Source: Shinella zoogloeoides (lineage in GTDB: Bacteria; Pseudomonadota; Alphaproteobacteria; Rhizobiales; Rhizobiaceae). Taken from it: a stretch of DNA of 64,000 bases. The notes beneath the pieces are model-generated. The model had not been told where the DNA came from. It saw nothing but the letters and a program-made list of their open reading frames with translations, and did not search any database. How positions within the stretch are numbered: the stretch's first letter is position 1; each line of letters starts with the position of its first letter. Made by a program: the position numbers and the translations under genes. Where the stretch lies: contig NZ_CP086610.1 of the NCBI RefSeq assembly GCF_020883495.1, positions 601,501 through 665,500 on the forward strand. Reading direction: 5' to 3'. Positions 13,501 to 32,665 of this stretch are shown here, one piece after another.

Positions 13501-16068
13501 TTATGTGCGCGGCTTCAGGTTCTCGGGGTCGTACAGCGGCTTGTAGCCGATGCTGACCACCTCGACCGGGTAGCTCTCGTCGAAATATTCGATGTTGAGC
13601 TTGCGGCCTTCCTGGCAATAGGCGTGCGGCAGGTAGGCGAGCGCGATGTTCTTGCCGATGGTCGGACCGAAGGCGATGGAGGTCGTGTAGGAGCGACGGC
13701 CGAGCTCGTCGATCAGGATTTCCCCCGTCGCCGGGTCCACGACCGGCAGATTGCCGAGCGGGTAGCGCTTGACGCCGTTCCGGTCCGTATTCTCCGTCAT
13801 GAGAAGCGTGCAGAGCATGGCGGGCTGGTGGTCGCGCGCCTTGTATTCCAGATGCTTCGCCTTGCCGCGGAAATCGGCTTCCTTGACCTTGGGGCGGGCA
13901 AGGTCGGCCTCGATGAGGTTGTACTGGGTGAGAAGGTCCGCGTTCTGCAGGCGCAGGCTCTTTTCCATGCGGCGCGAGTTGGCATAGGTCTCGACGCCGA
14001 CCGCCATGACGCCGGTGGAGCGCAGCGCATCCCACACGGCAAGGCCGTCCTCGTACTTCATGTGCAGTTCCCAGCCCTGCTCGCCGACATAGGAGATGCG
14101 GAAGGCGGTCACGTTCTTGCCGGCGATCTCGATCTGCTTGATCGCGGCGAAGGGGAAGTTCTCGATATCGAGGCCGGCCGGGTCCGCGACCACCTTCTTC
14201 AGGTTTTCGCGGGCGTTCGGGCCCCAGATGCCGATGGTGATGAACTTCTCCGACGTGTCGGTGATGGTGACGTCGAGGCCGCGATCCTCGGCCACGCGCT
14301 TCATGTAGTGGAAGTCGCGCGGGCCGGCATCGGCGCCGTTCACGAGGCGGCAGCGGTCGGCCATGCGGAAGACGGTGAAGTCGGCGCGCACCATGCCCTC
14401 GTCGTCGAGGAAGTGGGTGTAGATGCCCTTGCCGATATTGCCGTCGCCGCCGATTTTTGCCGCGCAGAGCCATTCCAGCAGATCCACATGGTCGGGGCCT
14501 TCGATGTCGACCATGTGGAAGTGCGAGAGGTTGATGATGCCGCAATCCTCGCTCAGCGCCAGATGCTCGGCATTGGAGACGCGCCAGAAGTGGCGGCTGT
14601 CCCATTCGTTCTCGCGCACCGGAACGCGGTCGCCGTATTTTTCCAGCAGGTGCTCGTTGGCCTTGTAGCCGTGCGCACGCTCCCAGCCGCCCAGTTCCAT
14701 GAAGTAGCCGCCGAGTTCCTTCTCGCGCTCATGGAAGGGCGAGCGCTTGGCGCCGCGGCCCGAGGCATAGGGTTCGCGGTTGTGGACGGCCGGGAAGTAG
14801 ATCTTCTGGGCGGCCTCGTAGCAGCGGCCCTCGATGAACGTCTCTTCGAGCTGGTGCGGATAGAAGCGGGAATAATCGATGGAGTTGTGGTCGATCTCGG
14901 TGCGGCCGTCCGTCATCCAGTCGGCGATGAGCTTGCCGTAGCCGGGGCCGTCCTTCACCCAGATGGCGACGCAGTACCATAGACCGCGCACCTTCTGGCT
15001 CTCGCCGCAGGACGGGCCGCCGGCGGCGGAAACCTGAAGCAGGCCGTTGAAGGAATGGCCTTCGTTATAGCCGAGTTCGCCGAGGATCGGCGTCAGCTCC
15101 ATGGCCTTTTCCAGCGGCTCGAGGATTTGCTCCATGTCGAGGTCGCGCTGCGAGGGCGAAAGGCGCGCCTCGTGCTTTTCGAGAATGTCGCGCGGGTGGC
15201 AGAGGCGCGGATTGGTTTGCTCGTAATAGCCCCATTCGATCTGGCCGCCCTCGGTGGTCTTCGGGTCGCCGGTGTCGCGCATATAGGCGGAGTTGCCCTG
15301 GTCGCGCAGCAGCGGGAAGCCGATTTCCTTGCCGGTGCCTTCGAACTCGTTGTACGGGCCGAAGAAGGTCAGCGGATGGTCGACCGGCATGACGGGCAGG
15401 TCCTCGCCGACCATTTCGGCGATCAGGCGGCCCCAGATGCCGGCGCAGACGATGACATGGTCCGCCATGATCGTGCCGCGATGGGTGACGACGCCCTTGA
15501 TACGGCCCTTCTCGACGATGAGCGCGGTCGCCGGCGTGTTGCCGTAGACCTGCAGCTTGCCGGACTTTTCGGCGGCGTCGACCAGCTTGCCCGCAACGGT
15601 CTGCGAACGCGGCACGACGAGGCCGGCATCCGGGTCGAACAGGCCGCCCATGACCTGATCTTCCTCGATCAGCGGGAACATCTGCTTGATTTCGGACGGC
15701 GAGACATAATGCGCGCGGGTGCCGAAGGCGCGGGCGGAGGAAAGCTTGCGCTTGATCTCTTCCATCCAGCTATCGTCGCCCGTGCGGGCGACTTCGAGGC
15801 CGCCGATGCGCGCGTAGTGGCCCATCTTCTCGTAGAAATCGATGGAATACTGGGTCGTCCAGACCGAGAGATAGTCGTGGCTGGTCGTGTAGCAGAAGTC
15901 CGAGGCATGCGCCGTCGAACCGATATCGGTCGGGATGCCCGACTTGTCGATGCCCACGATATCGTCCCAGCCGCGCTCGATGAGATGATGGGCGATAGAC
16001 GCGCCCACGATGCCACCCAAACCGATGATGACGACCTTCGCCTTTTGCGGAAACTCTGCCATGCTCAT
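13501..16068 (-). CDS. FAD-dependent oxidoreductase fused to GcvT-like folate domain (dimethylglycine/sarcosine dehydrogenase-like)
   Basis: An 855-residue two-part enzyme. The N-terminal half is a DAO-type FAD oxidoreductase with the dinucleotide motif VVIIGLGGIVGASIAHHL (residues about 11-28) and GSTAHASDF near the flavin-attachment site. The C-terminal half from about residue 440 is a GcvT/aminomethyltransferase domain (GGDGNIGKGIYTHFLDDEG, SYVGEQGWELH, GVETYANSRRMEKSLR) that would pass the one-carbon unit to tetrahydrofolate. This layout is shared by dimethylglycine and sarcosine dehydrogenases. The substrate cannot be fixed here; an N-methylated glycine derivative or related amine is likely. 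The neighbouring XRE-cupin regulator, aminotransferase and amidohydrolase suggest a catabolic gene set for a nitrogenous compound. Confidence 0.85.
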   Translation of the reverse strand: MSMAEFPQKAKVVIIGLGGIVGASIAHHLIERGWDDIVGIDKSGIPTDIGSTAHASDFCYTTSHDYLSVWTTQYSIDFYEKMGHYARIGGLEVARTGDDSWMEEIKRKLSSARAFGTRAHYVSPSEIKQMFPLIEEDQVMGGLFDPDAGLVVPRSQTVAGKLVDAAEKSGKLQVYGNTPATALIVEKGRIKGVVTHRGTIMADHVIVCAGIWGRLIAEMVGEDLPVMPVDHPLTFFGPYNEFEGTGKEIGFPLLRDQGNSAYMRDTGDPKTTEGGQIEWGYYEQTNPRLCHPRDILEKHEARLSPSQRDLDMEQILEPLEKAMELTPILGELGYNEGHSFNGLLQVSAAGGPSCGESQKVRGLWYCVAIWVKDGPGYGKLIADWMTDGRTEIDHNSIDYSRFYPHQLEETFIEGRCYEAAQKIYFPAVHNREPYASGRGAKRSPFHEREKELGGYFMELGGWERAHGYKANEHLLEKYGDRVPVRENEWDSRHFWRVSNAEHLALSEDCGIINLSHFHMVDIEGPDHVDLLEWLCAAKIGGDGNIGKGIYTHFLDDEGMVRADFTVFRMADRCRLVNGADAGPRDFHYMKRVAEDRGLDVTITDTSEKFITIGIWGPNARENLKKVVADPAGLDIENFPFAAIKQIEIAGKNVTAFRISYVGEQGWELHMKYEDGLAVWDALRSTGVMAVGVETYANSRRMEKSLRLQNADLLTQYNLIEADLARPKVKEADFRGKAKHLEYKARDHQPAMLCTLLMTENTDRNGVKRYPLGNLPVVDPATGEILIDELGRRSYTTSIAFGPTIGKNIALAYLPHAYCQEGRKLNIEYFDESYPVEVVSIGYKPLYDPENLKPRT

Positions 16069-24205: not shown

Positions 24206-24388
24206 TCAGGCCTGCGTATTGTCCTCGACGGGCGCGTCCGGGCCATTCTTCTTGATGGAATCGATGGCGTTCTGCGCGCTGGCCTTGCTGGTGTAGCCTT
24301 CCGTGGAGAACATGATCTCGCTGTTGTACTTGAAGCGAACACGGAATTCGCCGGCCTTGTCCTTGTAGATCTCGAACTTGTGCGCCAT
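24206..24388 (-). CDS. YegP-family (DUF1508) small protein
   Basis: A 60-residue protein starting at the ATG at 24388, with GGAGG 7 bases upstream. The core FEIYKDKAGEFRVRFKYNSE followed by IMFSTEGYTSKASAQNAIDS is one YegP/DUF1508 unit (beta-beta-beta-alpha), whereas E. coli YegP has two. The function is unknown; the family is often stress-related. It lies just outside the tRNA-Gln integrative element. The following 228 bases up to the first cargo gene hold only the outer attachment repeat. Confidence 0.88.
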   Translation of the reverse strand: MAHKFEIYKDKAGEFRVRFKYNSEIMFSTEGYTSKASAQNAIDSIKKNGPDAPVEDNTQA

Positions 24389-24484
24389 GGGCTTTCCTCC
24401 ACGAGGGTGTGAATCAGACAGGCGCAACGTGCCAGCAGCGTAAACCTCTGGCAAGGCGCAAACATCTGTTTTCAAGGAGAAAGT

Positions 24485-24502
24485 TTGGCTGGGGAACCTG
24501 GA
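24485..24502. other. Distal attachment site (18-bp direct repeat)
   Basis: TTGGCTGGGGAACCTGGA, identical to the 3' end of the tRNA-Gln gene at 32591-32608, without the rest of a tRNA. It marks the left border of the integrative element. Confidence 0.85.
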
Positions 24503-24616: not shown

Positions 24617-24883
24617 CTATCCCAAGGGCCTTGCTCCCTTGTCGTACAGGTAGACGGTGACGGCAAAAGGCCAGTCTCGTTCGGCTCTCAGCAGGGCCTC
24701 GCGCACCGTCGTATCGACCGAATCCAGCACATGGAAATAGGCAGGATCGGCCTCCGCCTCCTCCAGGACGAACCAGGGACGCCCGTCCGGGCGTCTGGCA
24801 TTGTCATGGGCGGACGGCTCGAAGACGGCATCGCATTCGGGGATGCTGTGGTCTGTTCGGTGATCGATGATGTTGCCGAGCAT
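24617..24883 (-). CDS. Hypothetical small protein of the integrative element
   Basis: An 88-residue acidic soluble protein (MLGNIIDHRTDHSIPE at the start, VREALLRAERDWPFAVTVYL near the end). I do not recognise the family. No signal or membrane segment is visible. It begins 10 bases after the stop of the preceding membrane-protein gene on the same strand and is probably the last gene of the cargo operon. Its real status depends on conservation, which cannot be tested here. Confidence 0.5.
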   Translation of the reverse strand: MLGNIIDHRTDHSIPECDAVFEPSAHDNARRPDGRPWFVLEEAEADPAYFHVLDSVDTTVREALLRAERDWPFAVTVYLYDKGARPLG

Positions 24884-24893
24884 AAAGGCTGAC

Positions 24894-25418
24894 CTACTGG
24901 AGCGGAACGGGTGAAAGATCGGAAACAATCGTCAGGATAAACTGGACGACCTCCTCGTCCGACACCGTGACCCGGTTATAGGCCATGCTCTCGATCCCGG
25001 CAGCGGGGCCATTGAAGACACCGATAACCCTTCCGTCCTTGACGGGACCGTCCAGAGCCACAAACTGGATGGCATATTCTTCGTTGTGGCGCGTCAAGGC
25101 ATCGTTGCCGCTGGCGCGCATGACGAAGGTATCGACATCAATGGCCTCCCACGCAATCTCGTAGTTGAGCCGCTGCAAGTAGTTCGTAAGCTGGCCCAGC
25201 GTGATCTGCGCGCTGACAAAAGGTCGGGCAGCGGCGACTTGCCGGTCGAACATATCCTGCGTCGGCTGACCGCCCGGCAGCAGGCGGGACATTCTGGCCT
25301 GCGCAATGCGCGTTGCCGTGTCGGGGCCGAAGATGGCCTTATACCCGGAAACACCAACGGTAACGACGGCGGCGATGAGCAATGCCCCGCGCCAGGACTG
25401 AAAAAACTGGGCGTTCAT
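24894..25418 (-). CDS. Hypothetical single-pass membrane protein of the integrative element
   Basis: A 174-residue protein with one N-terminal hydrophobic helix (WRGALLIAAVVTVGVSGYKA, residues about 9-28), suggesting an anchored protein with a periplasmic domain. The rest is mixed alpha/beta (QLTNYLQRLNYEIAWEAIDV, EYAIQFVALDGPVKDGRVIG). I do not recognise the family. It is 23 bases downstream of the tandem recombinase-like gene and 10 bases upstream of the small acidic gene, so the three are likely co-transcribed and may work together. Confidence 0.55.
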   Translation of the reverse strand: MNAQFFQSWRGALLIAAVVTVGVSGYKAIFGPDTATRIAQARMSRLLPGGQPTQDMFDRQVAAARPFVSAQITLGQLTNYLQRLNYEIAWEAIDVDTFVMRASGNDALTRHNEEYAIQFVALDGPVKDGRVIGVFNGPAAGIESMAYNRVTVSDEEVVQFILTIVSDLSPVPLQ

Positions 25419-25441: not shown

Positions 25442-26575
25442 TCAGGTGGAAATTGGTTTCCAGTGGTTGATACGAAGCCAGCGATTGCCGGGAATGCCTT
25501 TGGTCGCGGCCCGTCCGCTAAAGCGGGTGCCATCGCTTGAGCGCGCCTCGACGGTGTAGATGACCAGAAAGTCCCCGTCGAAATAGACGTCGTAAGCCTC
25601 GACCAGCCGGCCGGCGCCGGATGGAACGCTGTCGATTTCCTTTCTCGATGGCGTGGTTTCGACGTACTCGCGGTCCATGACGGTGGTGCCGATGCCGGAT
25701 ATCGTCACCTCAAGCAACTCGATCTCCGTGGCATTGGCGAGGTAAAGCGGCACATAACCGTGCGTCCATTGCTTGCCGAAATACAGGGCGACGGGGAACG
25801 GGCAATGATCCAACGGGATCGTCTCCGGCCATTCATAGGCTTTCCGATAGGCGACCTCATAGGGAACGTCAGTGAAATCCGGCGTGAATACCTCACCGTC
25901 TCCGATGGCATCCGTCGTGCCGATGAAAAGCCGTGCCTTCTTTTCACGGCAGAGCGCAAGCGCCTGTTGAAGCTGCGGGCGCTCTGCCGAAAGAAGCGGC
26001 TCGGTTTCCACAAACTCGGCCAGCACGTTGGCGGATCGCAGCATCTTGCCGATTTCTCGGCGTTGCTTTTCCAGAAGGGCTTGCGCTTCCTCGGGGCCGG
26101 CGAGTGCGCGAAAATAGACCACGACATTCCGGGATCGCGCCCAGCTTTCACGGTCGGCCTCGTCCGGGTCTTCCAGGCGGACGATTTCCAGCCCGTCTTG
26201 CGAAATGGGCGCGAAGCGTTGTCCGGCGAGTGCCTTGGTCGTGGCGATCAGCACAGCGGCTCGCTCCCGGCCCGCTGCCTCCCGGGCAGCGCCATAGGAA
26301 GGGCGGCGGCCTGAGCCATCCTCCATCTCCATAAACGACGCGACGACAACACCCCGCTTTTCCTTCAGCCACCGATTGACAGACTGAAGCTGGACAAGAA
26401 TTTCCGGTGCCGCATCGGCTATCGCGTCCATATCGAACTGGCTGAACAGGGGAACGGGCTGTTCATCCTCGTCTTCGGTCCAATGGGTGATGAGCGGATA
26501 TGTCCCGGCGGTGGTTCCTCCTGCCTGACGAAAATAGACGACAACTTTCATGGGCTCCCCATCGTGATTTCTCAT
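25442..26575 (-). CDS. Protein with two tandem degenerate serine-recombinase-like domains
   Basis: A 377-residue protein; the ATG at 26575 has GAGGGAG upstream. Two stretches begin with VVVYFR (residues 11-16 and 151-156) and later carry matching patterns: RRPSYGAAREAAGRERAAVL..ATTKALAG (90-118) and ERPQLQQALALCREKKARLF..GTTDAIGD (198-226). This is the layout of resolvase catalytic domains (YxRVS, E/D-x-x-SG, RP-x-L, then the DRL region). In both copies the catalytic Ser is replaced (RQAGG, RALAG) and the DRL motif is absent, so catalysis is unlikely. The last 120 residues are beta-rich and unfamiliar. It sits 87 bases after a truncated nuclease-like gene on the same strand. The function is unknown; a DNA-binding or sensing role is possible. 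Confidence 0.6.
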   Translation of the reverse strand: MRNHDGEPMKVVVYFRQAGGTTAGTYPLITHWTEDEDEQPVPLFSQFDMDAIADAAPEILVQLQSVNRWLKEKRGVVVASFMEMEDGSGRRPSYGAAREAAGRERAAVLIATTKALAGQRFAPISQDGLEIVRLEDPDEADRESWARSRNVVVYFRALAGPEEAQALLEKQRREIGKMLRSANVLAEFVETEPLLSAERPQLQQALALCREKKARLFIGTTDAIGDGEVFTPDFTDVPYEVAYRKAYEWPETIPLDHCPFPVALYFGKQWTHGYVPLYLANATEIELLEVTISGIGTTVMDREYVETTPSRKEIDSVPSGAGRLVEAYDVYFDGDFLVIYTVEARSSDGTRFSGRAATKGIPGNRWLRINHWKPIST

Positions 26576-26662
26576 GATGCGGCTCCCTCGGGCGATGAAC
26601 CGCCCCACGTATTCACGTCTGCCTCGTTTGAATTGCCCCGAATTCGCAAGAAAGTCCCACTG

Positions 26663-27583
26663 TTACCGATTGAACACAGTCGTCCGGGTCGGATTGCCGA
26701 TGGCCCTTACCCGTCCCGGTATCGCAGCCTGGAGCTTGGCGAGATGTTTGCTCCAGGCGGGATCGTCTCGCTGCGCCTTGTCGAACCCGTAGATAATGAG
26801 ATGGGGAAGCGTGTCGATAACGGGTGCTGATCCCGTCTCGGCAATCTGACGGATCGCCGGTGCAATGCTGCGGCCGGCGCTTTCTCCGAATGCCCGTATG
26901 CGCATGTCGTTGAAGCGAAGCAGCGCCCTTGCCGTCTCGACATACCCTGCCGAAAGCTCGGCCCGGTAGGCTTCCAGCGCCTTTTCGTAATCCGTGATCT
27001 GACGAACCACATCGGGAAGATTGTCGCCGCTGGCACGCAAGGCCGAATTGGTGAAATGCTTGGCTTCGTAGAAGCGGATTGTAGGCACGTCGTTTTCTAG
27101 GACCGCAATCGCCGCATCGATACGATCCTGCCTGCGGTCGGATGAGCCGGCCTCCTCCTCGCCATCGTCCTCCGGCGAGGATAGGCGCGTCAGGGCGATC
27201 TCGGCATCGATCACATCGGCATTGCCGGCAAGCATGGGATGAATGCCGGCTTTCTCCGCACCGGCATAGCGAGATGCGGCCCTGCACATCTCGTTCAGGG
27301 TCTCCATGCCCAGATACGTCTTTTGAAGCACGTCTCGGGCGTCGAATTGGAATTCACCGCGTTCCAGGGCAACATAGGTCTGTGCTTGCCGAACAAGATA
27401 TTTCGCGTGGGTGAACGGGATCACCTGGCCCGGTTTCCAGCCGATGCGAAAGATGGAAGCGCCTCTATAATAGGCATTGATGGAGTTGCGTCGAACGGCG
27501 AGAACGAGGTCGGTATGCCGAAGCACATCACGCCACCAATTGCCGGCGCTATCGTTCGCCAGTTCCTCTAATGCATCCAGGAA
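26663..27583 (-). pseudogene. N-terminally truncated protein with a nuclease-like E-A-K motif
   Basis: The frame is open into the IS21-family element, whose end at 27584 replaces the original N-terminus; about 306 residues of the original protein remain. An acidic-linked helix-rich part (SSPEDDGEEEAGSSDRRQ) is followed by RIDAAIAVLENDVPTIRFYE-AKHF, where Asp and E-x-K spacing is reminiscent of PD-(D/E)xK nucleases. The C-terminus has APAIRQIAETGSAPVIDTLP and LIIYGFDKAQRDD. I do not recognise the family; the nuclease suggestion is inference from the motif. It heads what remains of the cargo operon and is probably inactive, unless expressed from within the insertion sequence. Confidence 0.55.
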
Positions 27584-27641
27584 TGTTGATTGCCACTGAG
27601 AACTGACCCGGCGTGGCCTGATATTTCCATTGAGAATTGAG

Positions 27642-29059
27642 GTAGCGTCCGCGCACGTGGTGTAATTTCGGAGGCGCATTGAGGTGGAAACGGCGGTGGA
27701 GAATGAGCTGCCGAATTCGTTGAGCGCAAGGTGGGCACCGGGCCTGTCGGAGAAGGTGGAGTTGCAAAGCTTCAACCAGCCGAAAGGAACCCCGATGACC
27801 GACGACAGATTAGCTCTTTCCGAGCTTGCCGCGAAGAGTGGCGATAGCGATTTTCTGCGCACGATTGCCGAAAGCGTGCTGCAACTGATCATGGAAGCCG
27901 ATGTTGATGGCCTGATCGGCGCTGGGCGCTATGAACGTGGCGACAGCCGCCAGACATGGCGCAACGGCTACCGCGACCGCTCGCTCGACACCCGGCTCGG
28001 CACGCTGAACCTGAAGATACCGAAGATGCGACAGGGAGCCTACTTTCCCGGCTTTCTGGAGCCGAGGAAGATGGTGGAGAAGGCGCTGGTGGCCGTGATC
28101 CAGGAGGCGTGGATCAACGGCGTCTCGACGCGCAAGGTCGATGAGCTGGTGCAGGCCATGGGCATGACCGGCATCTCCAAATCCTCCGTCTCCAAGCTGT
28201 GCAAGGATATCGACGAGCGGGTGAACGCCTTCCTCAAGCGCCCCCTTTCCGGTGACTGGCCATACCTCTGGCTCGACGCCACCTATCTGAAGGTGCGTGA
28301 GGGCGGTCGCATCGTGTCGGTGGCGGCGATAATCGCGGTGGCGGTCAACACGGACGGGAAGAGGGAGATTGTCGGCCTGCACATCGGCCCCTCCGAAGCC
28401 GAGCCGTTCTGGACGAGCTTCCTGCGTGATCTGGTCCGCCGAGGCCTCACCGGCGTCAAGCTGGTCATCTCCGATGCCCATGAAGGGCTGAAAGCGGCCA
28501 TTACCCGTATCCTCAGCGCGACATGGCAGCGCTGCCGTGTTCATGCGACACGCAATGCGCTGGCCTACGTTCCCAAGGGCCAGCACACCATGGTCGCCGC
28601 CGCGATCCGTCAGGCTTTCATCCAGCCCGACCATGACAATGCCGTGCAGACCTGGCGGCATGTCGCCGACCAGCTCCGCGCCAGATGGCCCAAGCTCGGT
28701 ACCTTCATGGACAATGCCGAAGCCGACGTGCTGGCCTACATGGCCTTCCCCGCCCAGCACCGCACGAAATTACATTCAACGAATCCACTCGAACGCCTCA
28801 ACAAGGAGGTCAAGCGCCGTGCCGATGTCGTCGGCATCTTCCCCAACGAGGACAGCATCGTTCGCCTCATCGGCGCGGTTCTGCTCGAAGCCAACGACGA
28901 ATGGCAGCTCCTGAGCCGATACATGCAGGTCGAGGCAATGGCCGAGCTAAACCCACCAACAATCGAAGAGGAAACTACACTTCAGATTACACCCAGAGCC
29001 GCCTGATCATGACGGCCCGGTCCTACACCCGAAATTACACCAACTTGACGGACGCTATC
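27642..29059 (+). mobile_element. IS256-family insertion sequence nested in the IS21 element
   Basis: It is 1418 bases long. The ends read GGTAGCGTCC (27642) and GGACGCTATC (to 29059), near-perfect inverted repeats that extend into GGTGTAATTTCGG on both sides. It is flanked by the 8-base target duplication AGAATTGA (27634-27641 and 29060-29067). Removing it and one duplicate restores CCATTGAGAATTGACCC, the left internal repeat of the IS21 element. Confidence 0.92.
27795..29006 (+). CDS. IS256-family transposase
   Basis: A 403-residue DDE transposase; the ATG at 27795 has AAAGGA upstream. Family signatures: RNGYRDRSLDTRLGTLNLKI near residue 55, WLDATYLKVREGGRI with the first catalytic Asp, VISDAHEGLKAAI with the second, and the C-terminal RTKLHSTNPLERLNKEVKRR with the catalytic Glu. 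The gene is intact and both ends of the element are present, so the element may be active. It supplied the insertion into the IS21 left end. Confidence 0.93.
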   Translation: MTDDRLALSELAAKSGDSDFLRTIAESVLQLIMEADVDGLIGAGRYERGDSRQTWRNGYRDRSLDTRLGTLNLKIPKMRQGAYFPGFLEPRKMVEKALVAVIQEAWINGVSTRKVDELVQAMGMTGISKSSVSKLCKDIDERVNAFLKRPLSGDWPYLWLDATYLKVREGGRIVSVAAIIAVAVNTDGKREIVGLHIGPSEAEPFWTSFLRDLVRRGLTGVKLVISDAHEGLKAAITRILSATWQRCRVHATRNALAYVPKGQHTMVAAAIRQAFIQPDHDNAVQTWRHVADQLRARWPKLGTFMDNAEADVLAYMAFPAQHRTKLHSTNPLERLNKEVKRRADVVGIFPNEDSIVRLIGAVLLEANDEWQLLSRYMQVEAMAELNPPTIEEETTLQITPRAA

Positions 29060-29122
29060 AGAATTGACCCATGTTCCAACCTTCCCTCGCATGTTTTCAG
29101 CGGGGGCTATGGAGTGATCGAC

Positions 29123-30649
29123 ATGGCGTTATTGAGCGTGATCCGACGCTGGCATTTTCGAGAAGAACTATCGATCCGGGAGATTTGCCGCAGGACTGGC
29201 CTGTCCCGGAATACCATCCGCAAATACCTGCGCCTGGACGGCGTGGAGCCGAAGTTCAAAGTCCCGGAGCGGCCAAGCAAGCTTGATCCTTTTGCTGATC
29301 GGTTGTCTGCCTGGCTGAAGAGCGAATCCAAGAAGAACCGCAAGCAGAAGCGGACGATGAAGCAGTTGCATGCCGATCTGATGAGCCTTGGCTACGAGGG
29401 CTCCTACAATCGGGTTGCGGCATTTGCTCGGGAATGGCGTGATGATCGGCAGAGAGAATTGCAGACGACGGGCCGCGGGACATATGTGCCCCTGGCGTTT
29501 GACCCCGGCGAAGCCTTCCAGTTCGATTGGTCGGAAGATTGGGCCATCATCGGCAATGAGCGCACCAAACTGCAGGTGGCGCACACGAAGCTGAGCTACA
29601 GCCGCGCCTTCATCGTTCGGGCCTATCTCCTGCAGACGCATGAGATGCTGTTCGATGCCCATAATCATGCATTCCGGGTCTTCGGCGGCATCCCCGGCCG
29701 CGGAATCTACGACAACATGCGCACGGCGATCGACAAGGTCGGCCGCGGGAAAGAGCGCGACGTCAATGTCCGTTTCCTGGCGATGGCCAGTCACTACGTA
29801 TTCGAGCCGGAGTTCTGCAATCCCGCGTCTGGTTGGGAGAAAGGGCAGGTCGAGAAGAATGTTCAGGATGCGCGTCATCGCTTCTTCCAACCTGTTCCGC
29901 GCTTTCCATCATTGGATGCCCTGAACGACTGGCTGGAGCTTCGGTGCAAGGAATTCTGGGCAAAGACCCCACACGGACAGATGCGCGGCACCATTGCCGA
30001 CATCTGGGCTGAGGAAGCTTTGGCATTGATGCCTGTTACCCGTCCGTTCGACGGCTTCGTGGAGTATACGAAGCGGGTCACGCCAACCTGCCTCGTCCAT
30101 CTGGAGCGCAATCGCTACAGCGTGCCGGCATCCTTCGCCAATCGACCGGTGAGCCTGCGGGTCTATCCGGATCGTGTCGTGGTTGCTGCGGAAGGCCAGA
30201 TCGTCTGCGAGCATCGTCGCGTCATCGATCGCTCTCACGACCGACCGGGACAGACGATCTACGACTGGCGGCACTATCTGGCGGTCGTGCAACGCAAGCC
30301 AGGCGCGCTTCGCAACGGTGCACCCTTTGCCGAGCTACCGGACGCGTTCCGGACCTTGCAGCAATACCTCCTGAAGAAGCCGGGTGGCGACCGCGAGATG
30401 GTCGATATCCTGGCCCTTGTTCTCCAGCACGACGAACAGGCCGTGCTATCGGCGGTCGACATGGCGCTGAAGTCCGGCGTCCCCACGAAGACCCACGTGC
30501 TGAACCTGCTGCATCGCCTCGTCGACGGCAAATCCTTCACACCGCCCACCATCGATGCACCTCAGGCCCTGACGCTCGTCAACGAGCCCAAGGCCAATGT
30601 CGAACGATACGATGCGCTGAGAAAGACGGAGGCCCGCCATGCGTCATAA
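29123..30649 (+). CDS. istA: IS21-family transposase IstA
   Basis: A 508-residue integrase-type transposase. I placed the start at the ATG at 29123 ([12 protein letters not shown]); a GTG at 29114 is an alternative. The N-terminal helix-turn-helix reads [20 protein letters not shown]; the DDE core includes [14 protein letters not shown] (first Asp), YDNMRTAID (second Asp) and [15 protein letters not shown] (Glu); the C-terminal part has [20 protein letters not shown]. It overlaps istB by 11 bases. Its upstream promoter region was altered by the IS256 insertion about 55 bases before the start. Confidence 0.92.
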
Positions 30650-31451
30650 TCCAGCAAGCGGCGCTGTCGTCATCATGCTGCGGCAACTGAAGATGCACGG
30701 CATGGCCCAGGCCGTCGGCGAACTCACCGAGCAGGGATCGCCGGCATTCGAGGCGGCAATCCCGATCCTGTCGCAGCTCCTCAAGGCGGAGACCGCGGAA
30801 CGTGAAGTTCGATCGACGGCCTACCAGCTCAAGACGGCACGCTTTCCAGCCTATCGTGACCTGAACGGCTTCGACTTCACCAGCAGTGAGATCAACGAGG
30901 CGCTGGCCCGTCAGCTTCATCGCTGCGACTTCCTGGACGACGCCAACAACATTGTCCTGGTCGGCGGTCCCGGCACGGGCAAGACGCATATCGCCACGGC
31001 CATCGGTGTCCAGGCCATCGAACATCATCACAAGCGGGTTCGGTTCTTCTCGACCGTGGAACTGGTCAACGCGCTCGAGCAGGAGAAGTCCCAAGGTCGC
31101 TCAGGCCAGATCGCCAACCGCCTGGCACACTCCGATCTCGTCATCCTCGACGAGCTCGGTTATCTGCCGTTCAGTGCTTCAGGCGGTGCGATGCTGTTCC
31201 ATCTGCTGAGCAAGCTCTATGAGCACACGAGCGTCATCATCACCACCAACCTGAGCTTCAGCGAATGGGCCAGTGTCTTCGGCGATGCCAAGATGACAAC
31301 CGCGCTGCTCGACCGGCTCACCCATCATTGCCACATCCTCGAGACCGGCAACGACAGCTTCCGCTTCAAGAACAGCTCCGCGCACGACACCAAAACGACA
31401 AAGGAGAAAACGAGGAACTTGACCACGACCGCAGAGCCGAAACATACCTAA
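30639..31451 (+). CDS. istB: IS21-family ATPase helper IstB
   Basis: A 270-residue AAA+ ATPase that assembles on target DNA and recruits IstA. Walker A is [16 protein letters not shown] (residues about 108-123), Walker [14 protein letters not shown], then the sensor region [19 protein letters not shown] and the arginine-finger area [11 protein letters not shown]. Length is normal. It overlaps istA by 11 bases and ends about 55 bases before the right end of the element. Confidence 0.93.
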
Positions 31452-31506
31452 TAAGCGGGTCAATTCTCGGTGGAAACGCCGGGTCAGTTCTCAGTGGCAA
31501 TCAACA

Positions 31507-32537
31507 GCTTCGCTCCACATGGCGGAAAGAGCGGAGAAATGGCGCTTGATGGTCTTCTGTGTCAACAGAGGCTGTTTCCGGTTGTCCGGCAGCTTTTCAT
31601 GGGCGCGGATGATTTCATCGGGTGTGAAGGTTTTGTAGGCGGAAGCCTTGCCGTAGTCGGAAGGCAAACGCTCCGCCGTTGCGCGGAATTGTCCGGCATC
31701 CGCCCGCGTATACCGGCTTACCGGCTTGTCCCCGCAGTTCTGGATGAAAAGCCGGTACGTGGCATCGGCCTGGTTGCCGGTTTGCTGTTTCCACTCTTTG
31801 CGCCGGAGCTGGCCTTCGATGTAGCTCGGGTAGACCGTCGAAAAAAGCGGCTCCGACTGCACATCCGATTGCCGCGCCGGCACGGGAGCCGACGTTACGG
31901 GGCGTGCCTCGGCCAAGGTCTGGCGGAGGAGCTTGCTTTTCGGTTCATAGTCGAAGTCGCCTTCATAGCGAGCTTTCAGTGCTTCCGCGAGATCGATGCC
32001 GGCGCGGTGAACCGCTTCCTTGCACTGATGGCGTTCTTCCTCGTCAAGCGAGGGCCAGGACAAGCCAGCCATCTGGGCAGCGGCCTGTGATGCCCAAAGT
32101 CCGGTGTCGAGCGTATTGCCGCCAAGGGTTTTCCGCGTCTGCTCGGCAACGTCGGACCAGAATTTGGCGCGTGCGGCGCGCGCATCTTCTTCGAGATAGG
32201 CGCCGGAAGCGCGACCGGCGTGCTCCCTTGCCAGAATATGGTTGTAGAATTGCTGTGCGAGGCGGGTGATTTCATCGTCGGTAAGCATGGGATTTGCGCG
32301 GGCTCTCTCGAAAAGTTTTTCGGTGAGCCGATATAGTTCGTCCGCTCGCAGTCGCGCTGTCCTGGGGGAACAGGCTCCCAAGGTGCGCACGAACTCGCGT
32401 CGTTTCAGCCTGTCGCGCAAATCGGCGGGAACGACTCTTCGGAAATGAAACATGCGTCCGCGCCGGACGACGTTGGAAGGAACTGCCAAGCTGCTTCGCT
32501 CGCCTTTGTAGCGGCGGTTTGTAGCAAAGCGCTTCAT
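31507..32537 (-). pseudogene. Tyrosine integrase, C-terminal catalytic domain lost
   Basis: About 343 residues remain. The N-terminus has the arm-type DNA-binding part (RRGRMFHFRRVVPADLRDRL) of integrases with a DUF6538-like start, followed by the core-binding SAM-like segment (QTGNQADATYRLFIQNCGDK to LLTQKTIKRHFSALSAMW). The frame runs into the IS21 end at 31506, so the catalytic R-H-R-Y residues are missing. The gene starts 54 bases from the attachment repeat in tRNA-Gln and points away from the tRNA, as expected for the element's own integrase. It is almost certainly inactive. Confidence 0.85.
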
Positions 32538-32590: not shown

Positions 32591-32608
32591 TTGGCTGGGG
32601 AACCTGGA
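32591..32608. other. tRNA-proximal attachment site (18-bp direct repeat)
   Basis: TTGGCTGGGGAACCTGGA overlaps the last 17 bases of the tRNA-Gln gene (CCA end, acceptor and part of the T stem) and equals the distal copy at 24485-24502. Confidence 0.85.
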
Positions 32609-32665
32609 TTCGAACCAAGATTAACGGAGTCAGAGTCCGTCGTTCTACCGTTGAACTATTCCCCA
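32592..32665 (-). tRNA. tRNA-Gln (anticodon CTG)
   Basis: A 74-base gene with encoded CCA. The acceptor stem TGGGGAA pairs with TTCCCCA, with discriminator G. The anticodon stem ACGGA/TCCGT encloses the loop CTCTGAC, giving anticodon CTG (reads CAG). The T loop is TTCGAAT with one G-T wobble in its stem. It is the integration target of the element to its left; the tRNA remains complete. The 236 bases between it and the next gene hold no other gene. Confidence 0.95.

Follow-up and report, generated by a model that had tools for sequence, protein, structure and literature searches.

DRL377 of Shinella zoogloeoides, a probable twin pseudo-recombinase encoded on a decayed tRNA-gene island

Functional serine recombinases are characterized by a catalytic Ser following a Y-x-R motif, a D-R-L-x-x-R motif, and the phosphate-side residues R8 and R45 together with a Gln, and they continue into a long helix E plus a DNA-binding domain. 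The closest known counterparts of the protein considered here, DRL377, are short proteins of the 'recombinase family protein' type (PF00239; frames of about 200–280 amino acids (aa); L015, L072, and, on a plasmid, L099). DRL377 (377 aa) is encoded at 25442..26575 on the minus strand of the window, i.e., the whole stretch of 64,000 nt of Shinella zoogloeoides DNA that was analyzed (contig NZ_CP086610.1, positions 601,501 to 665,500). It shares the catalytic domain with the short recombinases, together with its R, Q, and RP positions and, e.g., the motif AEFTEVESG..RPEL..AL. However, the short recombinases possess the Ser and DRLxR and extend further at the C-terminus, whereas DRL377 lacks the Ser and DRL..R, and its domain ends after strand 4, is doubled, and is fused to an immunoglobulin (Ig)-like domain. 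Compared with a functional enzyme, it retains the phosphate-side Arg/Gln set and has lost both the Ser and DRLxxR; DRL377 is very probably a pseudo-recombinase.

The DRL377 gene is supported by the list of open reading frames (ORFs), by homologues, by an AlphaFold2 (AF2) model, and by the ratio of nonsynonymous to synonymous substitution rates (Ka/Ks), and it is the sole copy found in its genome. The longest ORF form at the locus spans 25442–26608, the start at 26575 being the one common to most relatives. The model (pLDDT 88.8, pTM 0.65) comprises a dead resolvase domain 1 (aa 9–147; 26135..26551, minus strand) with an extra predicted beta hairpin at aa 25–55, a dead resolvase domain 2 (aa 148–246; 25838..26134, minus strand), and a C-terminal Ig-like beta-sandwich domain (aa 250–377; 25445..25828, minus strand). 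Domain 1 was delimited by hhalign, secondary structure, and its conserved residues. In the model, no long helix is apparent after strand 4, the Ig-like domain standing there instead. A first-pass annotation of the sequence had described two resolvase-like domains and a separate beta-rich C-terminal domain; this plan holds, although the model domains are larger than the residues 11–118 and 151–226 it had assigned to the two halves.

At the level of sequence profiles, homology of both halves to the serine-recombinase catalytic domain is confirmed. In hhalign comparisons with 12 active recombinases, domain 1 reached a probability of 96.4 (P 9.6e-10) and domain 2 a probability of 99.5 (P 4e-21), and the two domains matched each other at 99.4 (P 2.1e-20), which bears out the repeated plan noticed earlier; the controls (the C-terminal domain, an alignment of the neighbouring ExK protein described below, and 20 column shuffles per comparison) gave 0.9 or less. 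The active profile was built from the 12 of 25 loci (L015–L039) that passed a strict motif filter, 13 being left out. A hidden Markov model of domain 2 recovers domain 1 in the same proteins (3e-21 in P0049 and 5e-18 in L041) and also in the window protein (1.7e-9, aa 61–123). The Pfam Resolvase model passes its threshold in two homologues, on domain 1 (27.0 and 28.4 bits), and stays sub-threshold on domain 2 of DRL377 (E 0.0059, 17.1 of 23.3 bits). Per-domain structural comparison of the model supports the recombinase fold for domain 2. Whole-chain searches with Foldseek and VIA-align mainly returned beta-sandwich domains, covering the C-terminal part. Periplasmic binding proteins and receptors were considered as a full-length match for the tandem and rejected in favour of the per-domain match. 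A search of PDB sequences yielded only the TP901-1 integrase (E 0.42). With no NCBIfam or PADLOC match and Pfam sub-threshold, no named family was found for the protein, as had been suspected.

The loss of the active site was traced in an alignment of 37 rows (A2), composed of DRL377 and 36 of the 68 proteins found by profile search, with 36 rows covering each half. All 36 rows of either half retain three residues without exception, namely the Y-x-R Arg, the helix-A Gln, and the R-P Arg (R16, Q62, and R91 in domain 1). The catalytic Ser is missing from both halves of DRL377, in agreement with the first reading; across the rows, its column is filled by A, N, E, P, G, V, L, and other residues. 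An S occurs there in three of the 36 rows (P0001 and P0018 in domain 2, P0052 in domain 1), the register of the P0052 residue being doubtful owing to an insertion. DRL..R is replaced by TTKAL and TTDAI. We take the conserved and lost positions to correspond to R8, Q19, R45, S10, D67, R68, and R71 of gamma-delta resolvase. Ka/Ks amounts to 0.16–0.22 over seven pairs and, between the window gene and four relatives, to 0.17–0.22 overall, with at most 0.44 in any single domain. Low Ka/Ks and the invariant R/Q/R set thus indicate that a nucleophile-free pocket is being kept, and a tandem of such pockets would suit a reader of nucleic acid or nucleotide.

The family numbers 51 proteins by single-sequence search and 68 by profile search, the latter list including fragments and, in its last three rows, ordinary recombinases; rows named by organism belong to Shinella (two), Pseudorhizobium (one), and Aquabacter (one). 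A common form is a single dead resolvase domain joined to the same Ig-like C-terminal domain (56 proteins, P0069–P0124), which resembles the twin protein in its dead site and C-terminal part and differs in having one resolvase domain only. Among the 52 of them whose Y-x-R can be read, neither a correctly placed Ser nor DRLxR occurs. The six organism-named rows come from Nitrobacteraceae, Afipia, and Bradyrhizobium, and four of them carry the NCBI label 'recombinase family protein'. A C-terminal-only form was found in L008. When recombinase loci were surveyed, the domain was obtained from 26 of 27 and the Ser was present in 24 of these 26 (L084 and L097 by eye). A plasmid search with DRL377 gave no match, and one with the L041 homologue gave a single recombinase with Ser and DRLAR intact; no relative of A1 or A5 was confirmed when viral contigs were scanned by pattern, and phage records contained none. 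No description of the protein or its module was found in the literature searched, preprints and most subscription journals having been omitted.

In a tree of 41 domains (93 columns, 17 hand-picked active rows), domain 1, domain 2, and three single halves (21 rows) form one clade with support of 100/99. This dead clade lies within a 93/88 group with two other Ser-less sequences, from which the 17 active rows are separate. Of the nine rows for each domain, eight group together (99/98 for domain 1 and 98/89 for domain 2); the halves of P0064 do not resolve, and the L008 half forms a long branch. This tree is most simply read as one inactivation with a later duplication; its 93 columns allow other histories. 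Adjoining the twin clade, outside it, stand L086 and L087 (genomes G949 and G1045), a resolvase-like pair that also lacks the Ser (YFRRAVRR and YYRRSVRR; ATMDGLSRD), with open frames of 219–225 aa and one stop inside the L086 match. The single dead half of L008 (111 aa; 14288–14623, plus strand) adjoins an uncharacterised 181-aa protein (13746–14291, plus strand) and a methylase of the Eco57I type (1361 aa); an MBL-ExK operon (genes described below) with the C-terminal-only form occupies the same region of that genome.

The window copy of the twin gene resides on an integrative element, as the first-pass annotation had proposed. A tRNA-Gln (CTG) gene (32592..32665, minus strand) provides the attachment (att) site, and an 18-bp direct repeat is found at the tRNA 3' end (32591..32608, plus strand) and at the far end of the element (24485..24502, plus strand), i.e., two matches in the window vs. 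0.00 expected. The integrase (31491..32537, minus strand; DUF6538, tblastn) is shortened to 348 aa, compared with 571 aa in L006 and 585 aa in L004. Fuller relatives of the island in L004, L005, and L006 are likewise flanked by a tRNA-end repeat of at least 14 bp. They comprise the integrase, a Rep-like gene (REP_ORF2-G2P, below cut-off), PDDEXK_13, DUF2958, a divergent helix-turn-helix regulator, a metallo-beta-lactamase (MBL) gene, the ExK gene, the twin gene, and genes for a 174-aa protein, p103, and a protein of 216 aa that on visual inspection appears to be exported. In the window, the place of the regulator, MBL, and the rest is occupied by insertion sequence (IS) genes: an IS256-family transposase (27684..29006, plus strand), at the site of the MBL partner and regulator, and an IS21-type pair (29120..31451, plus strand, start approximate), consisting of istB (30639–31451; PF01695, 1.8e-79) and a listed ORF that, by family resemblance alone, we take to be istA. 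The MBL, regulator, PDDEXK_13, and Rep genes were not found in the window. Since IS genes replace the partners, the N-terminus of the ExK ORF is foreign, and the integrase is shortened, the island is regarded as decayed.

Directly outside the att repeat lies a DUF1508 gene (24206–24475), a homologue of which adjoins the module in L008 and another of which lies ~7 kb from tRNA-Gln in L009. The island of L005 (Rhizobium rosettiformans) shares 99.8% identity over 11.3 kb with that of L006 (Pseudochelatococcus contaminans), which may reflect either recent transfer between two genera or contamination.

Upstream of the twin gene, the native part of the putative PD-(D/E)XK nuclease gene covers 26663..27622 (minus strand; tblastn to aa 11–328 of the L004 protein), its 5' end being lost. 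The E-x-K neighbour described earlier stands by its motif and conservation; however, the full ORF (26663–27892) carries ~90 N-terminal residues that are not common to relatives, in the region overlapped by the IS256 gene. D176, E194-A-K196, Q216, and Y220 are invariant in 10/10 relatives, giving the D...ExK...QxxxY pattern of PD-(D/E)XK nucleases, and the window copy reads EAKHF..Q..DY. Unlike known members, the ExK protein has no informative family match in Pfam, NCBIfam, or PDB sequences. The lost partner is represented in relatives by a 416-aa MBL protein that resembles RNase J/beta-CASP enzymes in its HxHxDH motif (by eye), Lactamase_B_2 and RMMBL domains, and RNase J matches (PDB 7wnt, E 1.8e-14; TIGR00649, E 2.2e-19, below its cut-off). 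In contrast to RNase J, it is shorter and has no beta-CASP Pfam match at E 0.1, and RNase J subfamily models remain below cut-off. Both proteins are likely nucleases.

Downstream, the 174-aa protein (24894..25418, minus strand) has one N-terminal hydrophobic segment (aa 12–30; hydropathy 1.89), a predicted membrane anchor that hints at action near the envelope; relatives follow the twin gene in L004–L007, L040, and L041. The small ORF p103 (24617..24928, minus strand) is conserved from about 24886 downwards, with 89–92% identity in L004–L007.

Searching with the twin protein revealed six twin-form loci with readable context besides the window: L004 (= L042), L005, L006, L007 (= L043), L040, and L041. 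All six preserve the order MBL, ExK, twin protein, and 174-aa-type protein, with one extra related gene ahead of the membrane protein in L040 and L041; the predicted co-occurrence of nuclease-like and membrane genes is thus kept. An ADP-ribosylglycohydrolase gene is added in L040 (69% identity) and L041 (PF03747, 7.9e-78). Such a gene also lies close to an MBL-ExK remnant in L065, and a weaker relative was seen at the edge of L056.

The search with the ExK protein covered the order (7 other genomes out of 397), the class (3 others out of 385), and plasmids (4 of 72,556 records, two of the same length and place), totaling 13 distinct loci. An intact MBL gene adjoins ExK in 11 of them, before it in nine and after it in L067 and L070, whereas L065 retains only an MBL fragment and L058 has no adjoining MBL. 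Near the pair are a double AAA ATPase and a WYL regulator (L055, L056, L066), a WYL regulator alone (L057, L067), PDC-S26 and MkoA-like genes (L056), methylase genes (L068, a R. phaseoli plasmid), genes annotated as PD-(D/E)XK nuclease and UvrD-helicase (L069, an Ochrobactrum plasmid), and an ordinary recombinase (L070). WYL regulators beside phage-defence loci are the subject of PMC9122601. In six loci, the pair is accompanied by small, mutually related proteins that carry a GIFWFVP or FWGVP-like motif and may be accessory candidates (L053:5433-5840, L054:1702-2085, L055:9608-10114, L068:5225-5605, L069:4577-5053, and L070:9154-9498). Single-domain proteins with a full frame were found in 5 of 159 genomes of one family, and in two of these five loci (L052 and L120) the MBL-ExK pair stands beside them.

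Very probably, the catalytic domain of a short recombinase lost its nucleophile and DRL..R residues, became joined to an Ig-like domain, and, in the twin branch, was duplicated into a covalent pseudo-dimer. For its action we propose a tentative mechanism, possible rather than probable. Because the phosphate-side R, Q, and R stay invariant, the twin protein may bind, but not cut, nucleic acid or a ligand that bears phosphate. It could then help the RNase-J-like MBL and ExK proteins of its operon as their scaffold or recognition subunit, presumably in a complex, with the anchored 174-aa protein keeping it close to the membrane. Carried on tRNA-integrating islands, the module would most likely target incoming mobile DNA or phages. 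Defence against mobile DNA, suggested by island carriage and some neighbours of the wider pair, is the leading guess as to its role, held with similar reserve; support for the DNA-sensing or defence module of the first-pass annotation is likewise circumstantial. In its strongest form, a mobile immune module in which the duplicated dead site is a DNA-structure or nucleotide sensor licensing beta-CASP and PD-(D/E)XK nucleases at the membrane, the proposal appears somewhat unlikely.

The whole reading of DRL377 as an exapted pseudo-recombinase serving as accessory subunit of a two-nuclease island module is evenly balanced in our estimation, and several observations weigh against it. Neither of the two models gave a Foldseek match at E 0.001 or better, and no recombinase aligned to domain 1 figures among the 50 structure matches shown, an absence that decides nothing, since one domain can fill such a list. 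These E values, and the several unrelated alpha/beta proteins among the matches, would fit a resemblance arising by coincidence of Rossmann-like folds; that view is extremely improbable, and we regard it as refuted by the profile comparisons, in which shuffled columns and unrelated alignments stayed at background level, and by Pfam scores above threshold in homologues. Gene neighbourhood also weighs against the accessory-subunit reading: a dead resolvase-type partner occurs in only one of the 13 ExK-found loci (L052), although L066 ends at a contig edge inside ExK with the relevant side beyond the contig end, and three of the five single-domain loci (L121–L123) lack the MBL-ExK pair. Co-occurrence alone therefore does not imply a complex, and the pair is seen as the wider unit, the resolvase-type protein being an optional partner that is also present on other islands. 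The module described at first thus keeps its ExK and membrane neighbours and gains an MBL partner, with an optional resolvase-type protein that also exists in single-domain form. Furthermore, the twin, MBL, ExK, and membrane proteins, when tested, matched no PADLOC-DB 2.0.0 model, and in this S. zoogloeoides genome the MBL partner is gone with no other close copy; in the search with MBL itself, which covered this genome, one open frame (560 aa) aligns over residues 43–242 with 23% identity (E 1.5e-5), and elsewhere MBL is known from loci beside ExK.

This last loss, together with the missing regulator, PDDEXK_13, and Rep genes and the shortened ExK and integrase genes, would suit a dying remnant without present function in this genome, a view compatible with the family-level readings and quite possible, if somewhat short of evenly balanced. 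The intact ORF and the low Ka/Ks to four relatives argue against it, except that the Ka/Ks values may reflect selection predating the insertions. That the twin domains form the ligand-binding or signalling part of an envelope-linked sensor, working with the adjoining exported and membrane proteins while the nuclease genes are mere neighbours, is unlikely: the periplasmic-binding-protein matches to the tandem have root-mean-square deviations of 10–13 Å, and DRL377 has no hydrophobic segment (highest 19-residue hydropathy mean 1.01). A non-catalytic helper of island integration, excision, or replication would accord with descent from recombinases and with carriage on tRNA-gene elements bearing a DUF6538 integrase and a Rep-like gene. 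Nonetheless, it is quite unlikely, as the adjoining integrase matches DUF6538 rather than Resolvase, the twin gene falls in a row with MBL and ExK rather than adjoining int, and the single-domain form of L123 has another tRNA, tRNA-Ser, nearby.

Enzyme relatives that have lost activity often prove to be sensors, and the twin protein offers a clear test case: its pocket is invariant yet lacks the nucleophile, occurs twice in a chain that ends in an Ig-like domain, and is encoded on islands close to nuclease-like genes. Some proteins of Afipia, Bradyrhizobium, and their kin that are labelled 'recombinase family protein' may, on this evidence, not be recombinases. The analysis also brings to notice the MBL-ExK gene pair, for which PADLOC-DB 2.0.0 has no match.
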